This document shows positions 19,180 to 42,990 of a stretch of DNA of 64,000 bases, piece after piece (position 1 is the first letter of the stretch; each line of letters starts with the position of its first letter). The notes beneath the pieces were generated by a model that saw only the letters and a program-made list of their open reading frames with translations, had not been told where the DNA came from and ran no database searches. The position numbers and the translations under genes were made by a program. Origin of the DNA: Undibacterium sp. 5I1 (GTDB lineage: Bacteria > Pseudomonadota > Gammaproteobacteria > Burkholderiales > Burkholderiaceae_D). The stretch lies in the NCBI RefSeq assembly GCF_034314085.1, contig NZ_JAVIWI010000001.1, forward strand, positions 558,001-622,000, in the 5' to 3' direction.

Positions 19180-21399
<2,220 letters not shown>

Positions 21400-26814: not shown

Positions 26815-26841
26815 TTATCGGCAAAAGCAAACCAGACTTTA
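26815..26841 (-). promoter_or_regulatory. Sigma-28 (FliA) promoter of fliD
   Basis: Read on the minus strand: TAAAGTCT, 11 bases, GCCGATAA. The -10 element is a perfect match to the consensus and the -35 differs by one or two bases. It ends about 35 bp before the fliD start codon at 26780. Confidence 0.88.
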
Positions 26842-27352: not shown

Positions 27353-29143
27353 TTAACGCAACAGAGCCAACACACCCTGTGGCAAGGCATTTGCCTGTGC
27401 CAAGATCGCTGTACCTGCTTGTTGCAATACTTGACCACGTGTCAAGTTAGCAGTTTCAGCAGCGAAGTCAGTATCCTGAATACGGCTACGGGAAGTAGTC
27501 AAATTCTCTGCCGTTGTTTGCAAGCTGCTGACAGCAGAGGCAAAACGGTTTTGATACGCACCCAAGGACGCACGTGAGCTATTGACCGATGCCAGAGCAG
27601 CATCAATGGTTGCCAAAGCAGACGTTGCACCCGATGCTGTGGTCAAATCCAGTGAAGAGAGGCCTGCGCCTGCCGTTGCTGTTGCCGCTGTGTTACCAGC
27701 AGTTAAGCCAGACGCTGTGGCACCAGCTCCAGCTACTGTCGTCGTACCTACTGCAAGACCAGTATTTGCAAGGGTTGCATTACCTTTTGTCGTAACAGTA
27801 AATCCAGCGCTTTGGGCTCCGGCAAGAGTTAAAACACCTCCTGTATTAGTGGCGGTAACACCAGTTTGTGATGTCTTGGCATTAATTGCAGCAGCTATTA
27901 ATACACCTTGCGCTGTAGCAGTTGCAGCAGTGCCAACGGTGCCAATATCGACACCGTTGATATTGATGTCGCCTGCGCTAAGTGAGAAGTTAGTTCCGGT
28001 GATGGTTGTGCCACTTGTTGTACCTGTTCCACCATTTGCTAATGTAATACCAGCAGAGCTTGTCGATGACAACGATACTGTACCAACGGTTGTTTTAATA
28101 CCAGCTGTTGCAGCAGCAATGCCTGTTGTTAAACCGGTGTTAGTATCGTTGGCGCCAGCGTTGGCAGATTTTGTGATGGTAATATTTCTAGCATCTGATG
28201 CGGTTAGTGATACGGCGCCTGTCGTGCTGTCAAAGGTTGCTGTTACACCAGTCTGGCTAGTTTTTGAATTGACTGCAGCGGTTACTTGAGCACCGCGTTC
28301 TGCGACAGAGCCTGCCGCCGCGAGTGCGCCAATATCGACACCATTGATTTTGATATCACCAGCGGCGATTGCGGCAGTAGCACTAGTTGCAGTGCCTGTC
28401 ACAGTCGTTGCATTCGCACTGGCAGTAACACCAGTTTGACCGCTTACCGCATTAATTGCAGCGGCCTTTGCAATGGCGCTACCACTGGAGTTTGCACTGG
28501 ATACGCCATCAGAGCTAGTTGCGCCAACGTTAAAGCCGTTAATGGCCAGATCGCCGGAGTTAAGGCCCCCAATCGCGTTAGTGCTGCCAGCAAGTGTTGT
28601 AGAGTAACTAGAGTTAGAACCTACGCCTAAAGAGGAAGAATTAGCGCTGGCGATGGATGCGATGTTGATCTGATCGTTTGATGTACCGTTTGCACCAACT
28701 TGGAAGCCTTGTGATGTAAAGCTACCATCAAGTAAGTGCACGCCGTTGAAGTTAGAAGAGCCAGCAACACGGTTGATTTCAGAAATCAGCTGGTTGGATT
28801 CATTATTAATGGCAGCACGGTCAGATGCGCTGTTAGAACCGTTGGCTGCCTGAACAGCAAGGTCACGAATACGTTGTAAGTTATTGCCGATTTGCGTTAA
28901 GTCGCCCTCAGCCGTTTGCGCTAAAGAGATACCATCATTCGCATTACGAACCGCTTGGTTCAAACCACCGATTTGCGATGTCAGACGTTGAGAAATTGCC
29001 AAGCCCGCAGCATCGTCTTTTGCACTGTTAATACGTAAGCCTGATGACAAACGTTGCAAGGAAGTCGCGAGGGAGTTTTGGGACGTTGTCAAATTGCGTT
29101 GCGCATTGAGCGATGCAATATTGGTATTAATATATGAAGCCAT
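27353..29143 (-). CDS. fliC: Flagellin FliC
   Basis: A 596-residue flagellin with conserved N-terminal ([13 protein letters not shown] ... [20 protein letters not shown]) and C-terminal D0/D1 regions ([23 protein letters not shown], written here in part). The central D2/D3 part (about 170-490) is Ser/Thr/Ala-rich and contains at least three flagellin_IN-like repeats of the form GDIxINGVDIG ... KTSQTGVTA. This exposed, Ser/Thr-rich region is a plausible glycosylation target, given the sugar-modification island that diverges from this gene. TAAGGAGT precedes the ATG. A sigma-28 promoter is at 29236-29262. Confidence 0.96.
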
Positions 29144-29235: not shown

Positions 29236-29262
29236 GTATCGGACGGATGCTTAAAAAGTTTA
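29236..29262 (-). promoter_or_regulatory. Sigma-28 (FliA) promoter of fliC
   Basis: On the minus strand: TAAACTTT, 11 bases, TCCGATAC. Both elements are close to the FliA consensus (TAAAGTTT-N11-GCCGATAA) with the exact spacing. It lies about 90 bp before the fliC start, leaving a fairly long untranslated leader. Confidence 0.85.
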
Positions 29263-29835: not shown

Positions 29836-29856
29836 GTGAGCCAAGTCTTGTCATGA
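29836..29856 (+). CDS. Possible 6-codon leader peptide coupled to the OGT gene
   Basis: AAAAGGAAAT at 29821-29830 is the only good ribosome binding site in front of the TPR glycosyltransferase gene. It is placed for GTG 29836, which opens a frame of only six codons (Met-Ser-Gln-Val-Leu-Ser) ending in TGA 29854-29856. That stop overlaps the ATG of the next gene (ATGA). This looks like translational coupling by a mini-ORF. No function of the peptide itself is implied. Confidence 0.35.
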   Translation: MSQVLS

Positions 29857-32474
29857 GTAGTGAAAATGAAGTGGAGCTTAGTGAACTCACTTCGCCTGAG
29901 CAAGCTTTAGCTCAAGCGCTAGATCAACTAATGGCAATGGCACAGCAGTGCAGGCAAAGCGGTAATCTTTTGAAGGCGGAGGAGTGCTATGAGCTGATCT
30001 TGACGCATGCGCCCGAGCATGCAGACGCCAATTTCCAGGCCGGGCAATTGAAGCTTTTGCAAGACGATCAACTTAATGCGCTGGCTTATTTTGAGCGCGC
30101 TATCCAGGCGTCTCCGGCGACTGGCTCATATTGGTCGTCCTATATCGCAATTTTAAAGTCATTAGGTGAAGAGAGTGTTGTCGCTGAGGCGCTGAACTTG
30201 CGGGCGCATTTTTTAAGAGATACCACTGATCACCTGACTGCCTCTGAGTCAGATCAAAAAACGGATAACGATCCGCCAATAGCAGATAATCTGCCGAATT
30301 TGTATATCCCAAAGACGCGACCTCTGACTTCAAAAAAATCCTTCATTCCGTCTGAAGGAGTGGGTCAGCTCGTTCATTTGTACGAGAAAGGTATTTATTC
30401 AGAAGTGGAGCGTCTGGCACGCAAGCTGACAAAAAAAAATCCAAGGCATGGGTTAGCCTGGCGCTTTTTAGGGATTGCTTTGCTGGAGCTTGAGCGCAAA
30501 GAGGCATCTTTAGTTGCCATGCAACAAGCAGTACGCATTTTGCCCAATGATCCGATTGCGCATTTTAATTTGGCTCTCGGGTATGCGAAAATGAATAATT
30601 TCTCTTCAGCCGAACAGCATTACCAACAAGCGATCAATTTGAATCCTGCGATGTTGGAGGCATACAATAATTTAGGTAATTTACTCGCTGCACTATCCAA
30701 GTTCGATGAGGCGGAGTCTTGTTTTCGGGCTTTAATTCAATACAAGCCAGAGTTTGCTTTAGCACATCTCAATTTGGCTAATGTGCTGAAACAAAGCGAA
30801 CGTTTGCAGGAAGCAAAAGCGGAAGCGATGCTGGCATTAAAGCTAGCACCAGACATGGCAGAGGCGCACAATTCTCTGGGAGGAGTTCTGCATCTCTTAG
30901 AAGAATTAGATCTAGCATCAGATCATCTGCAACGAGCTATTGCGCTGAAGCCAGATTTTGCCTCGGCTTACAATAACTTAGGTACGGTGTATCTAGAAAA
31001 ACGTCGGTATTTAGATGCCCAAGATTGTTTTAGAAAAGCCTTGATTCATAATCCTAAAATGAGCGCTGCTTGCCGATGCTTAGGCGTCGTAGGCACTTTA
31101 TTAGCAGAACCGATAGAGGAATCAGAACAATTTCTTCGAAGGGCGTTAGAGCTCGATCCCAAGGATCACTACGCAAATACTGCTTTGTTATTCTTGCTCA
31201 GTGAGGCGACTCATGTCACTCCAACCGCATTGTTTGCGGAGCATTTGCGTTTTGGTGAGCGTTTTGAATCGAGTCTGATATCAACCTGGTCAAAACATGC
31301 TAATGATAAAAACAGTGATCGTCCTCTAAGAGTCGGCTTTGTTTCGGGTGATTTTTACAATCATGCCGTTGCTACCTTTATTAGTCCGATCTTGGAGCAC
31401 CTGCACAAGTACCAGTCTCTTGAGTTACACGCTTACTATAATAATGATGAAGATGATAAAGATACCGCCAAGTTGAAATTCTACTTTCATCAATGGAAAA
31501 AAATACACCTGAAGAGTGACGATTGGACATTTAAACAAATTGTTGCCGACAAAATCGATATTTTAATAGATCTGTCAGGGCACACATCGTTAAACAGATT
31601 GACATTATTTGCCCGCAAGCCCGCACCAATTCAGATAAGCTGGATTGGTTATCCAGGCACGACCGGTTTGCGTGCGATGGATTATTTTGTGACGGATCGA
31701 TTCTGCTTGCCGTCTGAACAATTTGATCATCTTTTTTCGGAGAAATTAGTGCGACTACCTGCGATTGCTCCGTTTTCTCCGTCGCCTGAATCTCCAGAAG
31801 TAAATGATTTACCTGCGTTAACAAACGGTTATGTCACTTTTGGGAGCTTTAATCGAATCGGGAAAATAACGGATGATGTGATTCAAGTATGGTCAAACTT
31901 ATTAAACGTAGTGCCATCTAGTAAGTTGTTTTTGGGCGCTATGCCACAAGACGCCAGTTTTCAGCATTTGATTGATGCTTTCTCTAGCAGAGGGATTTCT
32001 CGCGATCGGTTAAGCTTTTTTGGCCGGTGCGGGATGACTTTGTATCTTAAACAATTGCAAAAGATTGATATTTGCCTGGATACTTTTCCCTACAATGGTG
32101 GGACAACCACCCTCCACGGACTCTGGATGGGCGTACCGACATTAACCAAGGCGGGTTCTACCGTGTCTGCGCGGACAGGTATTGGACTTTTATCTCATGT
32201 TGGTTTACAGCGATGCGCCGTATCTAATGATGAAGAATTCGTTAAAGAGGGTGTGTATTGGGTTGAACATTTGGACGAATTGGCGCAACTAAGAGCATCT
32301 TTAAGGGATAGGATGAGAAACTCACCGTTGATTAAGCCTGAGCTTATCGCCGCAGGTCTCGACCGGGCGATGCAAATAATGTGGCAGAGATGGTGCAAGG
32401 GCTTAGCTGCAGAATCTTTTGTCGTTGAGGAAGCAGAATTGAATGTCGCAAAAAAATGGAGTAGTTATGAGTGA
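29853..32474 (+). CDS. TPR-repeat O-GlcNAc-transferase-like glycosyltransferase (GT41/SPINDLY type)
   Basis: An 873-residue protein. About 10 tetratricopeptide repeats (roughly residues 10-470) contain typical units such as LEAYNNLGNLLAALSKFDEA. A C-terminal GT41 catalytic region (about 490-850) shows VGFVSGDFYNHAVATF, ISWIGYPGTTGLRAMDYF, FGSFNRIGKITDDV and CLDTFPYNGGTTTLHGLWMG. GT41 enzymes transfer a nucleotide-activated sugar to Ser/Thr of proteins in the cytoplasm; bacterial ones next to flagellin genes are known to modify flagellin. It diverges from fliC and heads the island, so flagellin is the likely acceptor. The next gene starts inside its last codons. Confidence 0.88.
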   Translation: MSSENEVELSELTSPEQALAQALDQLMAMAQQCRQSGNLLKAEECYELILTHAPEHADANFQAGQLKLLQDDQLNALAYFERAIQASPATGSYWSSYIAILKSLGEESVVAEALNLRAHFLRDTTDHLTASESDQKTDNDPPIADNLPNLYIPKTRPLTSKKSFIPSEGVGQLVHLYEKGIYSEVERLARKLTKKNPRHGLAWRFLGIALLELERKEASLVAMQQAVRILPNDPIAHFNLALGYAKMNNFSSAEQHYQQAINLNPAMLEAYNNLGNLLAALSKFDEAESCFRALIQYKPEFALAHLNLANVLKQSERLQEAKAEAMLALKLAPDMAEAHNSLGGVLHLLEELDLASDHLQRAIALKPDFASAYNNLGTVYLEKRRYLDAQDCFRKALIHNPKMSAACRCLGVVGTLLAEPIEESEQFLRRALELDPKDHYANTALLFLLSEATHVTPTALFAEHLRFGERFESSLISTWSKHANDKNSDRPLRVGFVSGDFYNHAVATFISPILEHLHKYQSLELHAYYNNDEDDKDTAKLKFYFHQWKKIHLKSDDWTFKQIVADKIDILIDLSGHTSLNRLTLFARKPAPIQISWIGYPGTTGLRAMDYFVTDRFCLPSEQFDHLFSEKLVRLPAIAPFSPSPESPEVNDLPALTNGYVTFGSFNRIGKITDDVIQVWSNLLNVVPSSKLFLGAMPQDASFQHLIDAFSSRGISRDRLSFFGRCGMTLYLKQLQKIDICLDTFPYNGGTTTLHGLWMGVPTLTKAGSTVSARTGIGLLSHVGLQRCAVSNDEEFVKEGVYWVEHLDELAQLRASLRDRMRNSPLIKPELIAAGLDRAMQIMWQRWCKGLAAESFVVEEAELNVAKKWSSYE

Positions 32475-33585
32475 CTTCACGCCACCACGCCCAATTTATG
32501 TTACGCAACCTCTGCTGCCACCACTAGCGGAATTTATGCCGTACCTAGAGCAAATTTGGGCGAATAAAATTTTGACTAATGGTGGACCTTTTCATCAGCA
32601 ATTAGAGCAAGAGCTATGTGATTATCTCGGTGTAAAACACTTGTGTCTGTTTGCAAATGGCACGTTGGCGTTATTAACTGCCTTGCAGGCATTGCGAATT
32701 TGCGGGGAGGTAATTACTACGCCTTACTCGTTTGTAGCGACGGCACACTCCTTGTTGTGGCATGGGATTAAACCTGTTTTTGTCGATATTGATCCGGTTA
32801 GTCTTAATATGAATCCAGACAAGATCGAAGCAGCAATTACAACCTCAACTACTGCGATTATGCCAGTGCATTGCTATGGACATCCTTGCGATGTAGACCG
32901 GATACAAAAGATCGCAGACGACTATAATTTAAAAGTAATTTACGACGCGGCTCACAGTTTTGGGGTCCAATGTAAAGGCGGTAGCGTATTGAATTATGGT
33001 GATTTGTCAGTCTTGAGTTTTCATGCGACTAAGGTTTTTAATACGTTTGAGGGTGGCGCTATTATTTGTCCCGATGCAAAAACCAAAAATCGGATTGATC
33101 ATCTGAAAAATTTTGGTTTCGTTGATGAATTAACCGTAGTGGCCTCAGGTATCAACGGCAAGATGAGTGAGATCAATGCTGCGTTTGGCTTGTTGCAACT
33201 AAAAAGTATCGATGATGCGCTGCAACAGCGCAAGGAAGTCGATAGAGCTTATCGGCGCGGGCTGGTAGGTATTGCTGGTATCCATTGCGTACCTGACGCT
33301 GGTGAGGACATTGCTAATTATTCGTATTTTCCAATTTTGGTTCAGCAAGACTATCCGCTGAAAAGAGATGAGCTATATCAAAAATTGCGTGATTCCGGAA
33401 TTTATGCGCGACGTTATTTTTATCCGCTGATCAGCGAATTTCCAATGTATCGTAGTATCCCTTCTGCCCTGCATACTAATCTACCAGTTGCCAGCAAGGC
33501 TGCCAGTGAGGTGATTTGTTTACCGATTTACCCTGATCTGAATTTGTCTCAAATTGAGCGGATTATTGATCTGATTAAAAGTTGA
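32467..33585 (+). CDS. DegT/DnrJ/EryC1-type sugar aminotransferase, VioA-like
   Basis: A 372-residue PLP enzyme of the sugar nucleotide aminotransferase family. The Schiff-base lysine is K189 in SFHATKVFNTFEGG, and the PLP-phosphate and substrate region is in PYSFVATAHSLLW. The opening PYLEQIWANKILTNGGPFHQ and the HATKVFNTFEGG segment are of the VioA/FdtB kind that aminate dTDP-4-keto-6-deoxy or 3-keto sugars. ATG 32467 (GGAG just before) is preferred over 32443; it overlaps the previous gene by eight bases. The likely product is a 4-amino-4,6-dideoxyhexose such as viosamine, but the exact position of amination is inference. Confidence 0.87.
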   Translation: MSDFTPPRPIYVTQPLLPPLAEFMPYLEQIWANKILTNGGPFHQQLEQELCDYLGVKHLCLFANGTLALLTALQALRICGEVITTPYSFVATAHSLLWHGIKPVFVDIDPVSLNMNPDKIEAAITTSTTAIMPVHCYGHPCDVDRIQKIADDYNLKVIYDAAHSFGVQCKGGSVLNYGDLSVLSFHATKVFNTFEGGAIICPDAKTKNRIDHLKNFGFVDELTVVASGINGKMSEINAAFGLLQLKSIDDALQQRKEVDRAYRRGLVGIAGIHCVPDAGEDIANYSYFPILVQQDYPLKRDELYQKLRDSGIYARRYFYPLISEFPMYRSIPSALHTNLPVASKAASEVICLPIYPDLNLSQIERIIDLIKS

Positions 33586-33595
33586 TGATCAGCTT

Positions 33596-34270
33596 ATGAA
33601 AACAATCATCTACGGAAATGGGGCGATCGCAAAATTAGTTTTTTCATACGCGCGTCATAGTATGAATATTGCAGGTTTTACAGTGGACGATATTTGTATT
33701 GCTGATAATACGGATAGTTTTTTAGGTTTACCCCTAGTTCCATTTACTCGCGTAGAAGAGCAATTTGCACCCGATCATTACAACATGATCATGGCAATGG
33801 GCTTCGTCGATATGAATGCTCTGCGCGAAAAAAAATATCTGGAAGCGATCCACAAAGGCTATGTATTTACCAGCTTTATCCATGCTTCAGTAACCAAGCA
33901 CGACGATGTGATTATTGAGGATAATTGCGTGATTCTCGATCATGTTTCTATTCACCCCGGATGTAGAATCAAGCAAGGTACTTTTATTTCAAGCAATGTC
34001 AATATCGGACACGACTGCAATGTGGATGAATTTAACTGGATCAATTCTGGTGTTGCGATTGCTGGCGGATGTCGTATCGGGCAAGCTTGTTTTTTTGGTG
34101 TTAATTCCTCTGTAGGTCATGGCGTGCACATCGGGGCTAGAAATTTTATCGCTGCAAACACGCTGATCAATAAAAGTACAGAAAACGATCAGGTGTATTT
34201 GTCAGAAGCGGGTCAGCTTTTAAAATTAAAAAGTCAATCATTTCTTAAATTTAGCCAATTACTTGGTTGA
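33596..34270 (+). CDS. NeuD/PglD-like sugar acyltransferase (left-handed beta-helix)
   Basis: A 224-residue protein with an N-terminal Rossmann-like domain (IIYGNGAIAKLVFSYAR) and a C-terminal hexapeptide-repeat helix (about 100-215). H139 in NIGHDC is at the position of the catalytic base of this family. Members N-acylate amino sugars on the nucleotide level, usually with acetyl-CoA. It lies 10 bp after the aminotransferase, so it probably acylates the amino group made there. The neighbouring ligase and carrier protein suggest that the donor may be an acyl-ACP instead of acetyl-CoA. Confidence 0.84.
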   Translation: MKTIIYGNGAIAKLVFSYARHSMNIAGFTVDDICIADNTDSFLGLPLVPFTRVEEQFAPDHYNMIMAMGFVDMNALREKKYLEAIHKGYVFTSFIHASVTKHDDVIIEDNCVILDHVSIHPGCRIKQGTFISSNVNIGHDCNVDEFNWINSGVAIAGGCRIGQACFFGVNSSVGHGVHIGARNFIAANTLINKSTENDQVYLSEAGQLLKLKSQSFLKFSQLLG

Positions 34271-34309
34271 TTGAATTGATTTGGACGATTACAGCGCTGG
34301 GAGGGTGCT

Positions 34310-35902
34310 TTGCTCCAAACGGATATTGAAGAGTCAGCGACAGCCAAAATTGCGCCCTTATTTTTTAGTTATGCCAAGAGCACACCCGAAAAACAAGCGA
34401 TTTGGTGTGAGGGCGAGACAATAAGCTACCGACAATTAAGTGAATTAGTTTGTCGCTGGTCGCATGGAATGTTGACCAATGATGTTAAGCGAGGTGATCA
34501 TATTGGAGTGATCTTGCCTAACTGCATTGAGTTTGTCGCATTGATGTTGGTCGCCGCGGATCTTGGTGCAGTATTAGTACCTTTAAACACGTCGTTGACG
34601 CCGAATGCAGCGCGACGAGCTTTTGATGCGGCGGAGGTAAAACATGTAGTGTCAAACGCTAGCTTATTGCGAGCATTATTTGATCCCACGAATGCACCAG
34701 AATCCACATTAAATTGGCTGGAAATAGATGGATTGTGGTTGAGTGTTGACACTGCCATTAACCATGCGAAACAACTAAGTCATGTGCTGGACAGTATTCC
34801 AGTGGAGGTACAGCCAAACAATTTAGCGCTAGCGGAAGATGCCTTTATTCTCACGATGACATCTGGTTCTACGGGTGATCCCAAGCCCATTGTGTTGACT
34901 CAGCGGACTAAATTTAATCGTGCCTCTGCTGCAATTGCGATCTATGGTGTGACAAAAGAGGACAAGACATTAGCCGCTACGCCGCTCTATCACTCTTTAG
35001 CTGAGAGACTAGTTCTGATCCCTTTATTGACCGGTGGAACTTGCGTGTTGATGTCTAAGTTTTCCGCCACGACATGGCTGAAGTGCGTGGCAACCGAGTT
35101 GGTGACTTTTACGATCGCTGTGTCTTCGCAACTGAAATTGATCGCGGAAGAGTTAAGCGTAATGAAAAAGAGTGACGCCAATACGAATCAAATTTCTAGT
35201 TTACGTTGCATTGTTTCTTCATCCGCACTACTTGAACATTCGGTAAAAGCGGATCTGTTAGAAAAGTTTGATTGCGAATTTCATGAGTGTTACGGCGCAT
35301 CTGAAATTGCCATCGCCTCAAATTTAGATGGCGTTGCTGCCAAGATCAAGCTCCAATCGGTAGGTACGGCTGCTCTTGGAGTCGATATTAAGATCATTGA
35401 TAAAAATGGCGAAGTATTGGGTGTAGGTCAAGAAGGTGAAATTGTTTGTAAGACGCCGATGTTGTTTGGAGGATATTTTAAACGACCAGATTTAACCAGC
35501 GCTGCGATGTGGGGAGACTATTTTAAAACAGGAGATACTGGTAAGTTGGATGAAGACGGTTTTCTTTATTTTCTTGGACGTACTAAGGACATCATCATTT
35601 CTGGCGGTATCAATATTTATCCCTCGGATATTGAAGAGGTCGTCGCACAGTTTGATACTGTGTTGGAGAGTGCCGCGTTTGCTTTTGCCGATCACCGGCT
35701 TGGAGAAGTTGTTGCGCTTGCTGTCGTACCTGTCAATAAAGATAGTTTTGATTTAAGGCAGCTTCGCTTTTATTGCAGTGAACGTTTAGCAGATTTTCAG
35801 CAGCCAAGAAAATTTTTTGTCGTAGATGAGTTACCTAGAAATAGCATGGGAAAGCTCATGAAATTCCAATTAGTACAGACACTGGGTAATAAGAGCGAAT
35901 AG
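34310..35902 (+). CDS. Acyl-AMP ligase (AMP-binding superfamily)
   Basis: A 530-residue adenylate-forming enzyme. Core motifs: TSGSTGDPKP (184-193), ECYGASE, YFKTGDTGKLDEDGFLYF, GRTKDIIISGGINIYPSDIEE following it, and the C-terminal catalytic Lys in NSMGKLMKFQ. The start is TTG 34310, four bases after GGGAGGG; the first ATG lies inside the domain and would truncate it. These enzymes adenylate a carboxylic acid and pass it to CoA or to a carrier-protein thiol. The carrier protein fused to the next gene product makes ACP loading likely. The acid is unknown. Confidence 0.85.
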   Translation: MLQTDIEESATAKIAPLFFSYAKSTPEKQAIWCEGETISYRQLSELVCRWSHGMLTNDVKRGDHIGVILPNCIEFVALMLVAADLGAVLVPLNTSLTPNAARRAFDAAEVKHVVSNASLLRALFDPTNAPESTLNWLEIDGLWLSVDTAINHAKQLSHVLDSIPVEVQPNNLALAEDAFILTMTSGSTGDPKPIVLTQRTKFNRASAAIAIYGVTKEDKTLAATPLYHSLAERLVLIPLLTGGTCVLMSKFSATTWLKCVATELVTFTIAVSSQLKLIAEELSVMKKSDANTNQISSLRCIVSSSALLEHSVKADLLEKFDCEFHECYGASEIAIASNLDGVAAKIKLQSVGTAALGVDIKIIDKNGEVLGVGQEGEIVCKTPMLFGGYFKRPDLTSAAMWGDYFKTGDTGKLDEDGFLYFLGRTKDIIISGGINIYPSDIEEVVAQFDTVLESAAFAFADHRLGEVVALAVVPVNKDSFDLRQLRFYCSERLADFQQPRKFFVVDELPRNSMGKLMKFQLVQTLGNKSE

Positions 35903-35914
35903 GATATAAAAATA

Positions 35915-37402
35915 ATGCAAACTACTATTTCAGCGTCATCTGCAACTCCGTTAAAACTAGGTTTTATCGGCGGCTCTATTCACTCTGCAGTTGGGTATTC
36001 CCACTTCATTTCTAGCGGAATGGATAGACGATGGCAATTAGTGGCAGGATGTTTTTCAAAAAATACGTCTACAAATAATGAGACAGCGATCGCTTATGGT
36101 GTCAGCAAAGAGCATCTTTACGATACTTGGCAAGCCATGCTGGCTAAGGAAAAAGGGCAGCTTGATGCCATCGTCATATTAACGCCGACGCCAGATCATT
36201 CTGAGAGTGTCATTGCTTGTATGCGTGCTGGTTTTGCTGTCATCTGTGAAAAATCTCTCGCCGTTGGCAGCGAGCAAGCGCGTCAGATTCTGGATGTACG
36301 CAATGAATTGAATGCGTTCTTAGCTGTCACCTATAACTACTCTGGTTATCCGATGTTGCGTGAACTGGCAAAAAGAATTTCTGATGGCAAGTTGGGGAAG
36401 GTGATTCATTTTCAAGCAGAAATGCCGCAAGAAGGTTTTATCCGGGTAGATGCTCATGGCAATAAGCCAGCGCCACAGTCCTGGCGCTTATCTGACGGCG
36501 ATATTCCGACTTTACATTTAGATTTAGCGGTGCACTTGCACCAGATTATTTATTATTTGACGAAACAAAAGCCGCTAGAGTTAGTATCAGATCAAAACCA
36601 TTACGGCTGGTTTTCTGGAGTTGTCGATAATGCGAGTTGTTTATGTCGTTACACCAGCGAGATTCAAGGCCAGCTATGGTTTAGTAAATCGGCATTAGGA
36701 CATAGAAACGGTTTAAAAATTCGTATTTATGGCGATCAGGGTTCTGCCGAATGGGTGCAATCTCATCCTGAAGAATTGATGCTTGCCTATGTAGATGGTC
36801 GACGTGAGGTTTTAGACCGTGCAGCAAGTGTCGAAGTTACCAATCAACGTCGCTACAATCGTTTTAAGGCGGGACATCCTGCTGGTTTTGTTGAAGCCTT
36901 TGCCAATTTATACGCTGATATCGCGGATGCTTTGCAGCTATTTAAGAATAAGGGTGAATGGCATTCAACGGAGGTGTTTAGTGCAGAGTTAGCGTTGGAG
37001 GGAATGTATTTTCTCGAGGCAATGGTCGCATCAGCAAAAACACGCGCATGGCAAACGGTAGGAAGTTCTCACGGGGCGCTTGCTCCAGTATTGGCGGCAT
37101 TGCAGGATGTCTCGGATCAACACCATAATCTAAATAGTGAAAATTCTATTGACGTTGAGATCAAATCTTTCATTCTGAGATTATTAGAAAAAAAATCGAA
37201 GCTGCCTGAAAAATTTAACGATGGCAGTGACTTTATTAAAGAAGGCATCGTTGACTCAATTGGTATTATTAAATTTATTCTTGAGTTGGAATCTAGATTT
37301 GATATTGAAATAAATGAGACTGATATAGAAACTGACGATTTTCGCTCTGTAAGAGGCTTGGTCGGGTTGATTCGCAACAAGCTGACGACTAAGGCTAAAT
37401 GA
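35915..37402 (+). CDS. Gfo/Idh/MocA-type oxidoreductase fused to an acyl carrier protein
   Basis: A 495-residue two-part protein. The N-terminal 380 residues form a Gfo/Idh/MocA NAD(P)-dependent oxidoreductase: nucleotide-binding GFIGGSIHSAVG, CEKSLAV in place of the usual EKP, and LHLDLAVHLHQII. The last about 80 residues are an acyl carrier protein with the phosphopantetheine site S448 in GIVDSIGIIKFI and an acidic helix around it. A sugar dehydrogenase fused to a carrier domain is unusual. The domain could hold the acid activated by the upstream ligase. It starts 12 bp after the ligase gene and ends one base before the next start. Confidence 0.85.
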   Translation: MQTTISASSATPLKLGFIGGSIHSAVGYSHFISSGMDRRWQLVAGCFSKNTSTNNETAIAYGVSKEHLYDTWQAMLAKEKGQLDAIVILTPTPDHSESVIACMRAGFAVICEKSLAVGSEQARQILDVRNELNAFLAVTYNYSGYPMLRELAKRISDGKLGKVIHFQAEMPQEGFIRVDAHGNKPAPQSWRLSDGDIPTLHLDLAVHLHQIIYYLTKQKPLELVSDQNHYGWFSGVVDNASCLCRYTSEIQGQLWFSKSALGHRNGLKIRIYGDQGSAEWVQSHPEELMLAYVDGRREVLDRAASVEVTNQRRYNRFKAGHPAGFVEAFANLYADIADALQLFKNKGEWHSTEVFSAELALEGMYFLEAMVASAKTRAWQTVGSSHGALAPVLAALQDVSDQHHNLNSENSIDVEIKSFILRLLEKKSKLPEKFNDGSDFIKEGIVDSIGIIKFILELESRFDIEINETDIETDDFRSVRGLVGLIRNKLTTKAK

Positions 37403-37403
37403 A

Positions 37404-39812
37404 ATGAACTCTGTCGCTACGATTATTCCGCATGTTAATCACCGTTCATTAGAATTTTCGGTAGTGATCCCTGCCTACAATGCAGCAAAGGATGTTCAAC
37501 GTTGCTTAAGCAGCGCGCTTAATCAGACGTTCGACAGAGACAGCTATGAAGTCATCTTAGTTGATGATTGTTCTACGGATGCTACTTTTTCGATTGCATT
37601 GGACATGGCAGGCAACTTCAGCCATTTGAGCGTAATTTCAGCGCCTGAAAACGCCGGTCCAGGGATCGCCAGAAATATTGGCATTCATCATGCAAATGGC
37701 TCATGGATCATTTTTCTTGATAGCGACGATACATTAGATCTGGATGCGTTGACGACATTAAAGCGTTTGATTGATTCACAAACCAATGACCTGGACATAG
37801 TTGCCTATAACTGGGCGTTTGATGACAGTCTCAGCATTCCGTCTACGATGCTGCCAACGTCAGGTCGACGCGATCAAGCGGCATTCAAATTAAATAAACG
37901 AGATTTGTTAAGTAAATATCTGTCCTTGCATATGGATGGATCGGTGATATTTACCGCCATCCGCCGGCAACTGATGATGGATCATCGGTTGATGTTTGCA
38001 GCTGGGTATCATGAAGACGTTGATTATATTTATCAGGCGTATTGGTATGCAAGGCAGATCGCGTATGTTGATCAAGTACTGTACTTAAAAAAATGGCGAG
38101 CAGAGTCGATTGTTAATACGATTTCGTTTAAGCATATTGATGGCTTTATTCGCGCCTGGAACAGCATTGCAGAATTTAGTAAGTTAGTGCATATCGATAA
38201 TTGGACAGAGCTTGTTTCCTATTATCGTCAAGGCACAACGGGTGTTGTTGCTACGCGCCTTAGAGAGATTTATTTAAGAGCAGGTTCTCCTACGCAAGAA
38301 GCTGCCTTATACGACTATTTTTTTGAGCGTATTGGCGCAAATAAGGAGTTTGCGGCGGTCCAGACCGATCTGCAAAATGATTTGGTTTTGTCGCAAACAA
38401 AATACGGTCAAATAGCCAGTCACTTTATGCGGATGATGCAAGCTACAAATCTCTCGCTAGTACAGAGAGCTACATCCATTCACGAGTTTATAGATCAAAT
38501 GATGAATAAAAGTTGGAGTTGCATTGATTTGCATCACTCGGTGTTTCTCGCGCCAGATCAAATACGTACCTGCTGTAAACGCTTTTTTGTCGATGGCGAA
38601 ATACGCGGCGATGTTGTATTGATGGATGTGCCATTAGGTGAATTAATTCCGGTGACACCTGAGCGTATCTTAAAAGCGAAGCGCGATTTACATACAAAAA
38701 TTAATCGTGCAGAGGCATCTGCTTGTGATAAATGCCCCTTCTTAGAGTTTAAGGAGTGGGGTGCACTAGATAAGTTAGATGTGAGATATCTGTCGTTTGA
38801 ATATCATTCTGTATGTAATCTTAAATGCAGCTATTGCAGTGATACATATTATGGCGGCCAACAAGCGAACTATGATGTCAACCGCTTGCTAGATAAGTTC
38901 TTAAACAGTCATGCGCTAGATCAATGCGGCACCATCGTTTGGGGCGGTGGAGAACCTGTAATAGGCAAAGATTTTGACGTGATGCTGGACAAAACCGTAG
39001 AGCGTATTCCTAATGCGAAACAGCGCGTGCTAACGAACGCAGTAAAACATAACAACACCGTGCAACGCTTGCTCGCAGAAAAAAAAGTGACCGTTACGAC
39101 CAGTATTGATGCTGGTACTGAGGCGACCTACACTCAGGTTCGCGGTATTGCGAGTCTGTTGTACAAAGCCATGACGAATTTACATCAATATGCAGATGCC
39201 GATCCTAGTCAGGTGACGGTTAAATATATTTTTACTGAAGGTAACTATTCATTAGACGAAGTGAAGGCATTTGTCGCTCTAGTGCATGAATACAAGCTGA
39301 CCGATTGTAACTTTCAAATTAGTTGCGACTTTAAACATGAGACGATTGCCTTAGATGCGGTTATTTCCATGATTGCTATGTATGGTTTATTATCAGACGC
39401 GCACTGTCCTCTGGTATTTTTTGATGACTTATTGAGGCAGCGTCTCAGCGATGCTCATGGCGAGTCGGAACAGATCATTAAACAAGCCTTACAAGATCTG
39501 GGTTTGTCGCACATCCTGGCTGACCGCTCTGACTACCAATCCGTAGCAATTTGGGGGGCTGGTTGGCAATCGAAGTACCTGATAGAAAAATCTGCTTTTT
39601 TTAAAGATGTTGATGTCGCTTATTTTATTGATTCCAGACCATCGCGGATTGGGGAATGGTATATGGGGCATGAAATCGTAGGTCCCGATACTTTATTAAA
39701 ATCAGATATTCCTGTCGTTATTGCTGCCGTTCAAAACTTGCCCTTAATTTATCAATCTTTTTTGGATCTTGGTATTGATGAATCACGCTTGATCAAGAAA
39801 CTCATTTTTTAA
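37404..39812 (+). CDS. GT2 glycosyltransferase - radical SAM - Rossmann-like fusion protein
   Basis: An 802-residue fusion. (1) A GT2 domain (about 15-330): FSVVIPAYNAAKDVQRCL, ILVDDCSTDAT and the DxD-type FLDSDDTLD (DSDD at 106-109). (2) A cysteine-rich linker with CC at 390-391 and CDKC at 441-444, resembling ligands of an auxiliary Fe-S cluster but placed before the radical SAM core. (3) A radical SAM domain (about 460-690) with C471, C475 and C478 in CNLKCSYC and GGGEP as the SAM-binding motif. (4) A C-terminal Rossmann-like domain (about 710-802, VAIWGAGWQSKYL). It may transfer a sugar and carry out a radical reaction on it. The function is unknown to me. Confidence 0.85.
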   Translation: MNSVATIIPHVNHRSLEFSVVIPAYNAAKDVQRCLSSALNQTFDRDSYEVILVDDCSTDATFSIALDMAGNFSHLSVISAPENAGPGIARNIGIHHANGSWIIFLDSDDTLDLDALTTLKRLIDSQTNDLDIVAYNWAFDDSLSIPSTMLPTSGRRDQAAFKLNKRDLLSKYLSLHMDGSVIFTAIRRQLMMDHRLMFAAGYHEDVDYIYQAYWYARQIAYVDQVLYLKKWRAESIVNTISFKHIDGFIRAWNSIAEFSKLVHIDNWTELVSYYRQGTTGVVATRLREIYLRAGSPTQEAALYDYFFERIGANKEFAAVQTDLQNDLVLSQTKYGQIASHFMRMMQATNLSLVQRATSIHEFIDQMMNKSWSCIDLHHSVFLAPDQIRTCCKRFFVDGEIRGDVVLMDVPLGELIPVTPERILKAKRDLHTKINRAEASACDKCPFLEFKEWGALDKLDVRYLSFEYHSVCNLKCSYCSDTYYGGQQANYDVNRLLDKFLNSHALDQCGTIVWGGGEPVIGKDFDVMLDKTVERIPNAKQRVLTNAVKHNNTVQRLLAEKKVTVTTSIDAGTEATYTQVRGIASLLYKAMTNLHQYADADPSQVTVKYIFTEGNYSLDEVKAFVALVHEYKLTDCNFQISCDFKHETIALDAVISMIAMYGLLSDAHCPLVFFDDLLRQRLSDAHGESEQIIKQALQDLGLSHILADRSDYQSVAIWGAGWQSKYLIEKSAFFKDVDVAYFIDSRPSRIGEWYMGHEIVGPDTLLKSDIPVVIAAVQNLPLIYQSFLDLGIDESRLIKKLIF

Positions 39813-39863
39813 AAAACAGCTTCTCTATAACTTATTTTACAAATGATTAACCAAGGAAACTCT

Positions 39864-40967
39864 ATGGATAACCCAGCTAAACAGTCTGGATTGAAACCTA
39901 TTTTGATTTTCCCCGCTGGTATGCCACGCTCATTGGATTTTCTTGAGAAATGCCAACGTGAAGGCCAGCCAGTAATCGGTTCTTCGTCGTTGGCTTACGA
40001 TGTGTCTAAGGATAAATATGCTGCATGGACGTTTTTGCCCTATATCACCGAGCCAGATTTTAATGATGCTTTAAAACTCGCCATAGTAAGCCTTGGCATC
40101 GGTGGCATTTTTAGTCCTAATCCGGTGGCCTGGAATTATTTAAAACGTGAGTTGAAGGGTATTAATCCTGATGTCCAGATGGTCAATGATTCACCGGTCA
40201 ATGATGAACTCAGTGGCTATCGCGTTGCATCTGCAAGGGCGAAGAAAGTAATCGACAGCCCTTTATTCGTTGCCTCTGACATTGCCTCCAAACCGCTGAT
40301 CTCCGCTCTTGAAATTGCGACAATTTTCAGACATGGAAATGTGATCTCAGGCATGTGTGATGACGAAAAAATCAGTGCCTTGTGCGAGATTGCCCGGTTT
40401 AGCGTCGCAGGCGATGTTGTAGAAATAGGCAGCTGGTGGGGAAAGTCAGCGTTTGTTTTGGCACGCCTTGCACATTGCTACCAGATAGGGAAAACACTAT
40501 GTGTCGATCCATGGTCTAGTGCACATCTGGTACAAAACGACGAAGGCGGTTTAGTCGACAGTGGTATTGCGCAATATGATTGTGATGAGGCACTGAGGGT
40601 ATTTGAAATGAACTTATTGCCTTACAACGCTAATAATATTAATTATTTGCGCATGCCTTCAACTGAGGGAGCAACGCACTACGTTAAAACGAAAAATGCT
40701 ACAACAGAGTCGTTCGGGTCAACTGATTATGCGGGCCAAATAGCAATTCTTCACATCGACGGCAATCATAGTTACGAAGCCGCAAAGGCAGACGTTGATG
40801 CGTGGACAGGGTTTGTTGTATCAGGTGGTTGGATAGTGATCGATGATTATGTGTGGCCTTACGGTGATGGGCCAAAAAAAGCGGGGGACGAATATCTGCT
40901 TCAGAATTATCATAGGATTAGTTCTGCTTTTGTGATGGGAACAGCGCTGTTTATGCAAGTTGTTTAG
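39864..40967 (+). CDS. Class I SAM-dependent methyltransferase with N-terminal Rossmann-like domain
   Basis: A 367-residue protein from ATG 39864 (AAGGAA ribosome binding site); ATG 39843 lacks one. The C-terminal half is a methyltransferase of the Methyltransf_24/cephalosporin hydroxylase-like type: motif I VVEIGSWWGKSAF, acidic CVDPWS, ILHIDGNHSYEAAKADVD and WIVIDDY. The N-terminal about 130 residues (PILIFPAGMPRSLDFLEKC, TFLPYITEPDF, GGIFSPNPVAW) look like the Rossmann-like domain that precedes ATP-grasp enzymes, here without the ATP-grasp. As last gene of the island it may O-methylate the sugar. The substrate is inferred from context. Confidence 0.8.
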   Translation: MDNPAKQSGLKPILIFPAGMPRSLDFLEKCQREGQPVIGSSSLAYDVSKDKYAAWTFLPYITEPDFNDALKLAIVSLGIGGIFSPNPVAWNYLKRELKGINPDVQMVNDSPVNDELSGYRVASARAKKVIDSPLFVASDIASKPLISALEIATIFRHGNVISGMCDDEKISALCEIARFSVAGDVVEIGSWWGKSAFVLARLAHCYQIGKTLCVDPWSSAHLVQNDEGGLVDSGIAQYDCDEALRVFEMNLLPYNANNINYLRMPSTEGATHYVKTKNATTESFGSTDYAGQIAILHIDGNHSYEAAKADVDAWTGFVVSGGWIVIDDYVWPYGDGPKKAGDEYLLQNYHRISSAFVMGTALFMQVV

Positions 40968-41334: not shown

Positions 41335-42990
41335 TTACGCCGCCTTCACGACCCTATTTTTCCCTGTTTTTTTTGCTTCATACATCGCTTTATCTGCTCG
41401 CTTTACAACCGCATCTTGTGGCTCTTTGGGCGCACGTAATGCAACACCTGCACTAAATGTGATGAACAATCGTTGTTCGTTGGCAGTAAAAAAATGAGTG
41501 GTCAATTCTCGCTGCACTCTGGTCATCGCCAAGGCAGCCTCATCGAGACTTGTTTCTGGCATGACGATTAAAAATTCTTCTCCACCATAACGGGCAATCA
41601 CATCGATTGAGCGTAATGTTTGTTTGACGATGCGTACCAGATGCACCAAGGCGTCATCGCCGGCCGAGTGACCGTAGGTGTCATTTAATTTTTTGAAGTT
41701 GTCCAGATCAAGCATGGCGGCGCAGAGCGGGGCGCCGCGACGATCTGCACGATCTGCTTCCCGTTCAAATACATCGTCTAGACCTCGGCGATTTAAGCTG
41801 CCGGTTAATTGATCCTCTCGCACCAGCTCGCTCATGTGGGCAAGCTTGTCCTCTAATTCTTTGATACGGGTCTCTGCTTCTTTGACTTCTTTTTGCGCAC
41901 CCAGCATCATTTCATGCGACCGCATTGTTTCTGACTGGACGGTACGCGTTTCGTTGAGAATGGCACCGATCAATTGATTGACTTCATTGGGGTTGCTAGT
42001 GCTACTCAACTGGTGGGAGTAGCCATCCATCTTGCTATGATAGGTCTCAGTACTCACAGCCATTACACTTAAGCGATCGATGAAAGTCGCCATCATATTT
42101 TTGACGGATGTTTTTGACTCGTCAATACTATGTTTGAGTACGCCTTGCTTATAAATCACATCTTTTAAGCTGCGCGTCGCTTCTTCCAGCGTACGATGGT
42201 CTATTGGCCCAGCGATCAAAGTTCTTACCACTTCGATTTGTCCACGCAACCAATTGTCTTCGTCTAGTAGTTCGTGCACGTTATCTAGTAACAGTCCAAA
42301 GAGACGAAGCAATAGTTCTTGCTGCTCTCCTGTATCACCGCCTTTTAATTCAATTTGAAAGCATAGTTGTTTCAGGCGAGTAGCTATTACATTGAGTGCA
42401 GGCTCATTATCGGCGTCGCGTACTGCAACACCAATTGACTCTGACTCTGCAGCCAGTTGTGGTGTTGATTTGAGTACGGAGGCTAGTGCCAGCGTGAGCG
42501 TGCGGTACAGCATGTCTTGTAAGATGCGTTGACGTCCATCTTCTAAGGGTAAGTCATCCACCAGAGAGATTTTGTTAGCTACTGGGGGTGCAATTGGGTC
42601 AACTAAGCTGATGGAACTAGCTGGTTTTACCATTGTTTTTTCTGCCAATTGGGACAGGCCTTTGCTGTAATCCTCCCAATCCCCAATTTTTATTGCGCGG
42701 CTAAAGCGATGTCCAAAGTTGGCCAGATCACCCTGAGATTGTTGCAGGCTTTGCGCAAAGCTGAGTAGCAGGGTTTCTGCTGCAGACGGTTCCTGCGTTT
42801 TCTCTTCTTGAGTTTGAGGGGCAGGGGGTGTTTCAAGTTCTACCGGATCTGTAACACCTGAAATTTCTTGGTATAGTTTTTTATAAGCGTCAGGTGTCGG
42901 TGCAATTCTTTGAATCGCCAAACGTTTAAAGGTCTCTTTAGCGATATCTGCTGGGTTTTTAAATTGCGAATTATTTTGATTATTTGACAT
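41335..42990 (-). CDS. Diguanylate cyclase (GGDEF domain)
   Basis: A 551-residue soluble protein. The C-terminal GGDEF domain (about 385-548) has an intact active site RYGGEEFLIV. An inhibitory I-site RxxD (RSID) lies five residues before it, so product inhibition is expected. The N-terminal about 380 residues are helical, with a coiled-coil linker, and match no sensor domain I recognise; a similar N-terminal half is seen in other Burkholderiales cyclases. It makes cyclic di-GMP, which YcgR encoded nearby would sense. No membrane segment is seen. Confidence 0.9.
   Translation of the reverse strand: MSNNQNNSQFKNPADIAKETFKRLAIQRIAPTPDAYKKLYQEISGVTDPVELETPPAPQTQEEKTQEPSAAETLLLSFAQSLQQSQGDLANFGHRFSRAIKIGDWEDYSKGLSQLAEKTMVKPASSISLVDPIAPPVANKISLVDDLPLEDGRQRILQDMLYRTLTLALASVLKSTPQLAAESESIGVAVRDADNEPALNVIATRLKQLCFQIELKGGDTGEQQELLLRLFGLLLDNVHELLDEDNWLRGQIEVVRTLIAGPIDHRTLEEATRSLKDVIYKQGVLKHSIDESKTSVKNMMATFIDRLSVMAVSTETYHSKMDGYSHQLSSTSNPNEVNQLIGAILNETRTVQSETMRSHEMMLGAQKEVKEAETRIKELEDKLAHMSELVREDQLTGSLNRRGLDDVFEREADRADRRGAPLCAAMLDLDNFKKLNDTYGHSAGDDALVHLVRIVKQTLRSIDVIARYGGEEFLIVMPETSLDEAALAMTRVQRELTTHFFTANEQRLFITFSAGVALRAPKEPQDAVVKRADKAMYEAKKTGKNRVVKAA

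Follow-up and report, generated by a model that had tools for sequence, protein, structure and literature searches.

What do seven closely packed genes beside the flagellin gene of Undibacterium sp. 5I1 make? The genes lie in a 64,000-nucleotide stretch of contig NZ_JAVIWI010000001.1 (positions 558,001 to 622,000), the whole of which is called the window here. They encode a protein-type glycosyltransferase, enzymes expected to make and acylate an amino sugar, and a glycosyltransferase fused to a radical S-adenosylmethionine (SAM) enzyme. The island probably coats the flagellum with an unusual acylated amino sugar. On balance, we think it is a flagellin-glycosylation cassette linked to fliC, belonging to a set of cassettes that fill this slot interchangeably in the genus, and that it works by the route proposed below. 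A first-pass annotation had linked the island to flagellin, to a 4-amino sugar and to acylation through an acyl carrier protein (ACP). Those three parts of its interpretation are supported, and one part that falls away is a specific tie between flagellin and the module formed by the third to sixth genes.

All seven open reading frames (ORFs), numbered g1 to g7, are intact between 29853 and 40967, on the plus strand and with no internal stops. The genes, coordinates and domain calls of the annotation hold in the ORF check and in Pfam. The gaps from g1 to g7 are, in order, -32, 10, 39, 12, 1 and 30 bases, a tight spacing that would fit a single transcription unit. The features in question are these (aa, amino acids; dTDP, deoxythymidine diphosphate):

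29853..32474, plus strand: g1, 873 aa, tetratricopeptide repeat (TPR) and GT41 (SPINDLY/OGT-type) glycosyltransferase by Pfam, presumed to glycosylate flagellin on Ser/Thr
32443..33585, plus strand: g2, 380 aa, DegT-family pyridoxal phosphate aminotransferase, presumed dTDP-4-keto-6-deoxyglucose 4-aminotransferase
33596..34270, plus strand: g3, 224 aa, NeuD/PglD/VioB-type hexapeptide N-acyltransferase by Pfam, NCBIfam and structure matches
34310..35902, plus strand: g4, 530 aa, TTG start, acyl-AMP (acyl-ACP/CoA) ligase with AMP-binding and AMP-binding_C domains
35915..37402, plus strand: g5, 495 aa, MocA-type NAD(P) oxidoreductase (about residues 27-379) fused to an ACP (420-486)
37404..39812, plus strand: g6, 802 aa, GT2 glycosyltransferase (about 16-365), radical SAM domain (about 366-700) and C-terminal Rossmann-like domain (711-802)
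39843..40967, plus strand: g7, 374 aa, methyltransferase, an N-terminal domain without a Pfam match followed by a Methyltransf_24/TylF-like domain
27353..29143, minus strand: fliC, flagellin, 596 aa, presumed acceptor, 30% Ser+Thr in residues 151-505
29237..29262, minus strand: sigma-28-like promoter of fliC, TAAA-N16-CCGATA, by pattern match
41335..42990, minus strand: GGDEF protein by Pfam, the right border of the island slot across the genus

The case for flagellin begins with g1 and its position. The island diverges from fliC, which has the Pfam domains Flagellin_N and Flagellin_C, and g1 stands at its head. Besides its TPRs, g1 contains a Glyco_transf_41 domain at 153.9 bits (cut-off 25) and scores 364.5 bits against SPINDLY. 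It is the sole GT41 found in a search of the genome, where both matches were halves of g1. The TPR and GT41 catalytic regions are common to g1 and the O-N-acetylglucosamine and O-fucose transferases OGT, SPINDLY and XcOGT; g1 differs from these in its setting, being a bacterial gene beside fliC, and in having a donor sugar and an acceptor that are predictions.

We compared the DNA upstream of fliC, up to about 17 kb of it, in 19 genomes of the same genus and in one of the same order. The 19 are part of a set of 22 relatives, from which one without a flagellin match (G007) and two with fliC near a contig start (G017, G019) were left out; 13 further genomes of the genus lay outside the comparison. 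A GT41 gene, 27-46% identical to g1, sits beside fliC, diverges from it and heads an island in 13 of the 19. The island runs to the GGDEF gene in 12 of these (cut by the end of the stretch or contig in L063 and L071), and in the thirteenth, L072, GGDEF is not reached within 17 kb. The remaining six genomes (L066, L069, L070, L073, L074, L075) have no island, and there GGDEF comes directly after fliC. The same-order stretch, L076, gave no GT41 match.

ORF clustering shows a single plan in 12 of the 13 islands (L057-L065, L067, L068, L071): GT41, nucleotidyltransferase, a nucleoside diphosphate (NDP)-sugar 4,6-dehydratase type, 3,5-epimerase, C-methyltransferase and a varied tail that includes O-methyltransferases. 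The 3,5-epimerase was picked in 11 of the 12, the pick in L068 being an overlapping ORF. Pfam was run on the representative L058 and on tail genes of L061 and L062. In L058 the genes after GT41 are nucleotidyltransferase, NDP-sugar dehydratase type, 3,5-epimerase, C-methyltransferase, hexapeptide protein, epimerase/reductase and O-methyltransferase. These islands share the slot, the GT41 head and the sugar-modifying genes behind it with the window, but carry C-methyltransferase, 3,5-epimerase and NDP-deoxysugar genes where the window has acyl, ACP and radical genes. L072 holds GT41 (46%), a g2 relative (73%), WbqC, an FkbM methyltransferase, NeuD (33%), a g7-like methyltransferase (32%), an ACP and an AMP ligase, with a short-chain dehydrogenase/reductase gene between the ACP and ligase genes. 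As a side observation, L072:767-15930 joins a viosamine-type set and WbqC to relatives of the genus-typical nucleotidyltransferase and dehydratase, and is a hybrid of two cassettes.

Sugar and glycosyltransferase genes therefore adjoin flagellin at a variable slot, as in flagellin-glycosylation islands. The slot holds exchangeable cassettes, each headed by GT41. This is what one would predict if GT41 glycosylates flagellin and the other genes make the sugar that it transfers. The 13 GT41-headed islands support the earlier proposal of a flagellin-linked glycosylation island. When the gene order is followed in relatives, as the annotation had suggested, the head of the island recurs and the genes behind it vary.

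What sugar would g1 transfer? The proposed 4-amino-4,6-dideoxyhexose would start from the products of rmlA and rmlB, genes that the annotation had placed outside the window. Both were found elsewhere in the genome, above curated cut-offs: rmlA at C1:4449094-4449948 (528.9 bits, cut-off 360.65) and rmlB at C1:4450035-4451039 (499.7 bits, cut-off 365.1), adjacent to each other and far from the window. g2 matches Pfam DegT_DnrJ_EryC1 at 341 bits, and its best structure match is DesI (2po3, 229.4 bits). The closeness of g2 to DesI and the presence of rmlA and rmlB support the 4-amino route. The nearest structures to g3 are UDP-N-acetylbacillosamine and perosamine N-acetyltransferases. In g5, Pfam places GFO_IDH_MocA at residues 27-139, C-terminal parts up to 379 and PP-binding at 420-486, the last scoring 26.2 bits against 20.8, as expected of an ACP. 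Acylation through an ACP is supported as well. g7 matches Methyltransf_24 and, weakly, TylF. The motifs with catalytic roles in g2 to g6 are all present: SFHATK in g2, GHDC in g3, TSGSTGDPK in g4, EKS, DLAVH and the ACP motif VDSI in g5, and LDSDD, CNLKCSYC and GGGEP in g6.

In the predicted order of steps, and with substrates that are likewise predictions, RmlA and RmlB would supply dTDP-4-keto-6-deoxyglucose and g2 would aminate it at C4. g4 would activate a free carboxylic acid and load it onto the ACP part of g5; the MocA part of that protein may alter the redox state of the acyl group or of the sugar. g3 would move the acyl group onto the amine, and g7 would O-methylate the product. g1, bound to flagellin through its TPRs, would place the first sugar on Ser/Thr. 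The GT2 half of g6 would attach another sugar, and its radical SAM half, together with MocA, may make a redox change at some atom of that sugar. The parts given to MocA and to the radical domain are thus tentative.

g6 is the most unusual protein of the island. Pfam finds Glycos_transf_2 at residues 19-158 and Radical_SAM at 469-579. In 34 aligned proteins, chosen as full-length matches with the GT2 and radical domains joined, the CxxxCxxC core of a radical SAM enzyme (C471, C475, C478) is invariant in 34 of 34, and so are five extra cysteines, C373, C390, C391, C441 and C444, all N-terminal to the core and candidate ligands of an auxiliary [4Fe-4S] cluster of the twitch/SPASM type. The NCBIfam model N_Twi_rSAM gives 42.9 bits against a cut-off of 170. 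In a VIA-align comparison of the whole g6 model the structures listed were all of the glycosyltransferase type, so the radical part was modelled alone. This part, with its core and extra cysteines, resembles by weak sequence and fold matches the twitch/SPASM enzymes SkfB, CteB-type 5wgg and BtrN, and the sugar-active radical SAM enzymes DesII, AprD4 and BlsE. BtrN was matched in a profile search (E 0.019) and is not among the 50 fold matches listed for the radical part, an absence to which we give no weight. g6 differs from both groups in the position of its extra cysteines before the core, in the GT2 domain in front and in the Rossmann-like domain behind. We know of no matched structure with this architecture, though the entries were not checked one by one. 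The libraries searched give no function for the GT2-radical SAM family. A match at E<=1e-80 occurs in 1 of 369 genomes of the class, the genome of 5I1 itself, and no full-length match occurs in 59 other genomes, where each listed match is confined to either the GT2 or the radical portion. g6 is therefore rare and patchy.

Companions of g6 were sought more widely. Two peptide patterns, taken from the g6 alignment and run against the GTDB species genomes, matched 96 stretches, of which 20 were confirmed as g6 loci, and other loci may have been missed. They come from Pseudomonadota, Verrucomicrobiota, Acidobacteriota, Planctomycetota, Poribacteria, Saganbacteria and a distant Prochlorococcus. MocA accompanies g6 in 17 of the 20 by tblastn (weakly in L027, at 34%) and was not found by that search in L032, L038 and L039. 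A set of NeuD, AMP ligase and ACP, called kit A, is complete in six loci (L023, L024, L025, L026, L028, L033) and in the window. A 383-408-aa ATP-grasp protein, kit B, is present in 11 loci, and none of the 20 has both. Three have neither kit complete: L038 (NeuD and ligase matches), L039, and L040 (ligase beside g6). L032 has the ATP-grasp protein plus a ligase 8 kb from g6. The two kits may be alternative ways to N-acylate an amino sugar, because both can join a carboxylic acid and an amine as an amide. For the ATP-grasp protein of L042, a phosphoribosylglycinamide synthetase entry is best (85.7 bits) and the L-amino acid ligase BL00235 second (49.8 bits). The idea that residues 1-185 of g7 are the front part of an ATP-grasp enzyme was dropped, as the region has no Pfam match and BLASTP showed nothing significant between it and two ATP-grasp companions.

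In L023-L026 and L028, MocA and ACP occupy distinct stretches next to each other, and in L023 and L025 the ACP was picked as an ORF of its own. The ACP lies between MocA and g6 in five of the six kit-A loci and after MocA in L033, where g6 is 4 kb from MocA/ACP on the opposite strand; in g5 of the window, MocA and the ACP form one protein. Relatives of g2 at 60% identity or more occur in 7 of the 20 loci. Two side observations concern the same neighbourhoods. ORF clustering places a radical SAM and B12-binding protein (family F11; L023:13582-15825, minus strand, L030, L035) near g6 in three of the 20 loci, with Pfam run on the L023 member. In the flagellin regions of Colwellia and Pseudoalteromonas (L032, L038, L040), g6 is near NeuB, a cytidylyltransferase, a Maf-type glycosyltransferase and, beside the AMP ligase, a 524-558-aa protein without a Pfam match (Pfam on the L032 members, the rest by ORF clustering). 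This suggests that g6 is used with nonulosonic acids there.

Several results weigh against our reading or against parts of it, beginning with the role of flagellin. A flagellin-domain gene lies within 20 kb of g6 on the same contig in 8 of 19 genomes (L023, L024, L026, L031, L032, L034, L038, L040; L030 was not in this search). For L034 and L040, FlgL is a possible identity of the nearest match; further flagellins lie at distances of 8.4 and 12.7 kb. In the other 11 there is no flagellin within 20 kb, some of their g6 genes being on short contigs. The genomes of L025, L035 and L039 gave no flagellin match at all, those of L025 and L035 being draft assemblies that may be incomplete. L025, from a 2.1-Mb assembly, has the order NeuD-ligase-MocA-ACP-GT2rSAM amid an ABC_tran protein, GT2, GT4 and methyltransferases, a polysaccharide-type cluster. 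Because the module occurs without flagellin nearby, nothing in g3 to g6 themselves points to flagellin. All this would suit an island that decorates a surface polysaccharide or a protein other than flagellin, its place beside fliC being a habit of the integration slot. We consider such a target quite improbable for the window, since a GT41, an enzyme type that O-glycosylates proteins, heads every one of the 13 filled slots and points directly away from fliC, L025 has no GT41 match, and flagellin is near g6 in the eight genomes above. The first-pass annotation had said that the same gene order beside polysaccharide loci, and not flagellin, would refute it; this describes L025 and does not describe the window. 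g3 to g6 form a portable decoration module, and it is GT41 and the fliC slot that link the window copy to flagellin.

The enzyme assignments raise a second set of difficulties. The best NCBIfam aminotransferase model for g2 is DesI, at 299.3 bits against a cut-off of 650, and g2 falls below every aminotransferase cut-off listed. The earlier label of VioA-like stands at the level of the family. g3 scores 132.6 bits with its best model, the NeuD/PglB/VioB family, against 160.8. The sugar, and not the acyl group, could be the substrate of the MocA half of g5, because the nearest structures to this half are oxidoreductases, the best named sugar-type enzyme among them being scyllo-inositol dehydrogenase (5ya8). 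MocA, DegT and a hexapeptide acyltransferase, the gene set of WbpB/WbpE/WbpD-type pathways, are all in the island, and a 3-amino sugar could be made with them: MocA would oxidise C3 of the sugar nucleotide, g2 would aminate the 3-keto group and g3 would acylate it, the ACP merely tethering the acyl donor. MocA keeps the Lys, Asp and His motifs and weakly matches the sugar 3-ketoreductase 3rbv (28.9 bits), and g2 also matches WbpE (144 bits). This 3-amino route nevertheless seems rather unlikely to us. g2 does best with DesI, a 4-aminotransferase, in both comparisons (229 and 299 bits), MocA stays with g6 without a g2 match in L027 and L029 (the L029 stretch starts only 3.2 kb before g6), and L072 has g2 and NeuD relatives and no MocA match. 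The 4-amino route remains the one we prefer.

The two kits and the unity of the island also have to be weighed. The exclusion of the kits has p = 3.1e-5 if the 18 kit-bearing loci, window included, are independent, but these loci share ancestry. In the g6 tree (20 rows, the window and 19 loci; L039, without an intact g6 ORF, was left out) kit A needs one change, with weak support (41/60), and kit B three. In the MocA tree (17 rows, the window and 16 loci) the kits need two changes each, and the kit-B locus L030 is placed with loci that carry kit A. Behind the exclusive pattern stand 18 loci and few independent switches. Nor do g1 and g7 regularly accompany g6, because GT41 matches occur in 4 of 20 loci and g7 matches in 5 (64% in L023, 28-32% in the others), most of all these at 25-36%. 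The pattern of the sigma-28 consensus matches the window exactly at three places, each on the minus strand (shuffled mean 0.49), and the scan of the window found no such site upstream of the island on the plus strand.

The kits bear as well on what the radical does. Its substrate might be not the sugar but the acid that the ACP carries before transfer, in which case MocA and the radical domain would jointly build an unusual acid. We judge this unlikely. The radical domain is joined to GT2 in all 34 aligned proteins, although they were chosen as full-length matches, and 11 of the 20 loci have the ATP-grasp protein and no ACP match beside MocA and g6. The fold matches include the sugar-active DesII, AprD4 and BlsE, so the fold does not discriminate. 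We therefore keep the proposal that the radical half of g6 acts on a sugar.

How much of this is new? Pseudomonas syringae makes N-(3-hydroxy-1-oxobutyl)-2-O-methylviosamine with VioA, VioB, VioS, VioR, an ACP and VioM, and VioT transfers it (PMC3927599). The annotation knew of no described system with the combination in the window. The island of pv. tabaci in the same source (vioA, vioM, vioT, vioS, vioB, vioR, acp) is a close analogue: its aminotransferase, acyltransferase, ACP and methyltransferase, which serve flagellin, are matched in kind in the window, which lacks the ketoacyl synthase (vioS), the ketoreductase (vioR) and the 1,173-aa VioT, and adds the AMP ligase, the MocA-ACP fusion, the GT2-radical SAM fusion and GT41. 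The same differences apply to the flagellin island of P. aeruginosa PAK, with OrfA (VioA homologue), OrfE (VioB homologue) and OrfB (ACP homologue), and the comparison as seen in PMC3927599 mentions no radical SAM gene. Pfam found no ketoacyl-ACP synthase III or ketoacyl-ACP reductase domains (VioS and VioR types) in the seven proteins, and the island ORFs include none of VioT size. ORFs of 1174-1373 aa from one family occur in L024, L026, L031 and L034, with a double GT2 in the member checked (L034). The AMP ligase may take the role of VioS, using a ready-made acid where VioS helps to build one on the carrier; MocA may stand in for VioR, and the GT2 domain of g6 perhaps for VioT. The term "radical SAM" is absent from PMC13317340 and PMC5109656 and "radical" from PMC3958885, within a limited coverage of the literature. 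Flagellin islands were already known, and what seems new is the family of GT2-radical SAM proteins, together with its link to MocA and the pair of acylation kits.

The surroundings of the island are flagellar on one side. Left of fliC are fliS (Pfam) and further fli genes, together with two genes that we take from their position to be fliD and flaG, relatives of both adjoining flagellins in other loci. A second sigma-28-like site, 26816-26841 on the minus strand, lies just upstream of the gene at the fliD position. A peroxidase-family gene (PF00141, 733 aa, 19198-21399, plus strand) is located within the flagellar gene region. Right of the island are genes that, by their sequence, are presumably LuxR-, GreB- and RelA-like. 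The genome has a second flagellin-domain gene at C1:1547536 (78 bits), which is probably FlgL, because most relatives have a second match this strong, mostly of 400-440 aa.

Beyond the window, the GT2-radical SAM protein and MocA could be the core of an undescribed mobile system of sugar decoration, in which a single protein attaches a sugar and then remodels it through radical chemistry, with two interchangeable amide kits, plugged into flagellin islands or polysaccharide loci. We hold this broader idea to be nearly an even call, just short of it. Amino sugars, acyl carriers and methyltransferases are known in flagellin islands; here they stand with a glycosyltransferase fused to a radical SAM domain, a family conserved in several phyla. 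Because the genus has natural absences and replacements at one slot, mass spectrometry could readily test the link to flagellin. If the idea is right, the two exclusive acylation kits would offer a genetic handle on the purpose of the radical step and of MocA, and radical chemistry would shape the sugars on flagella and other surfaces.

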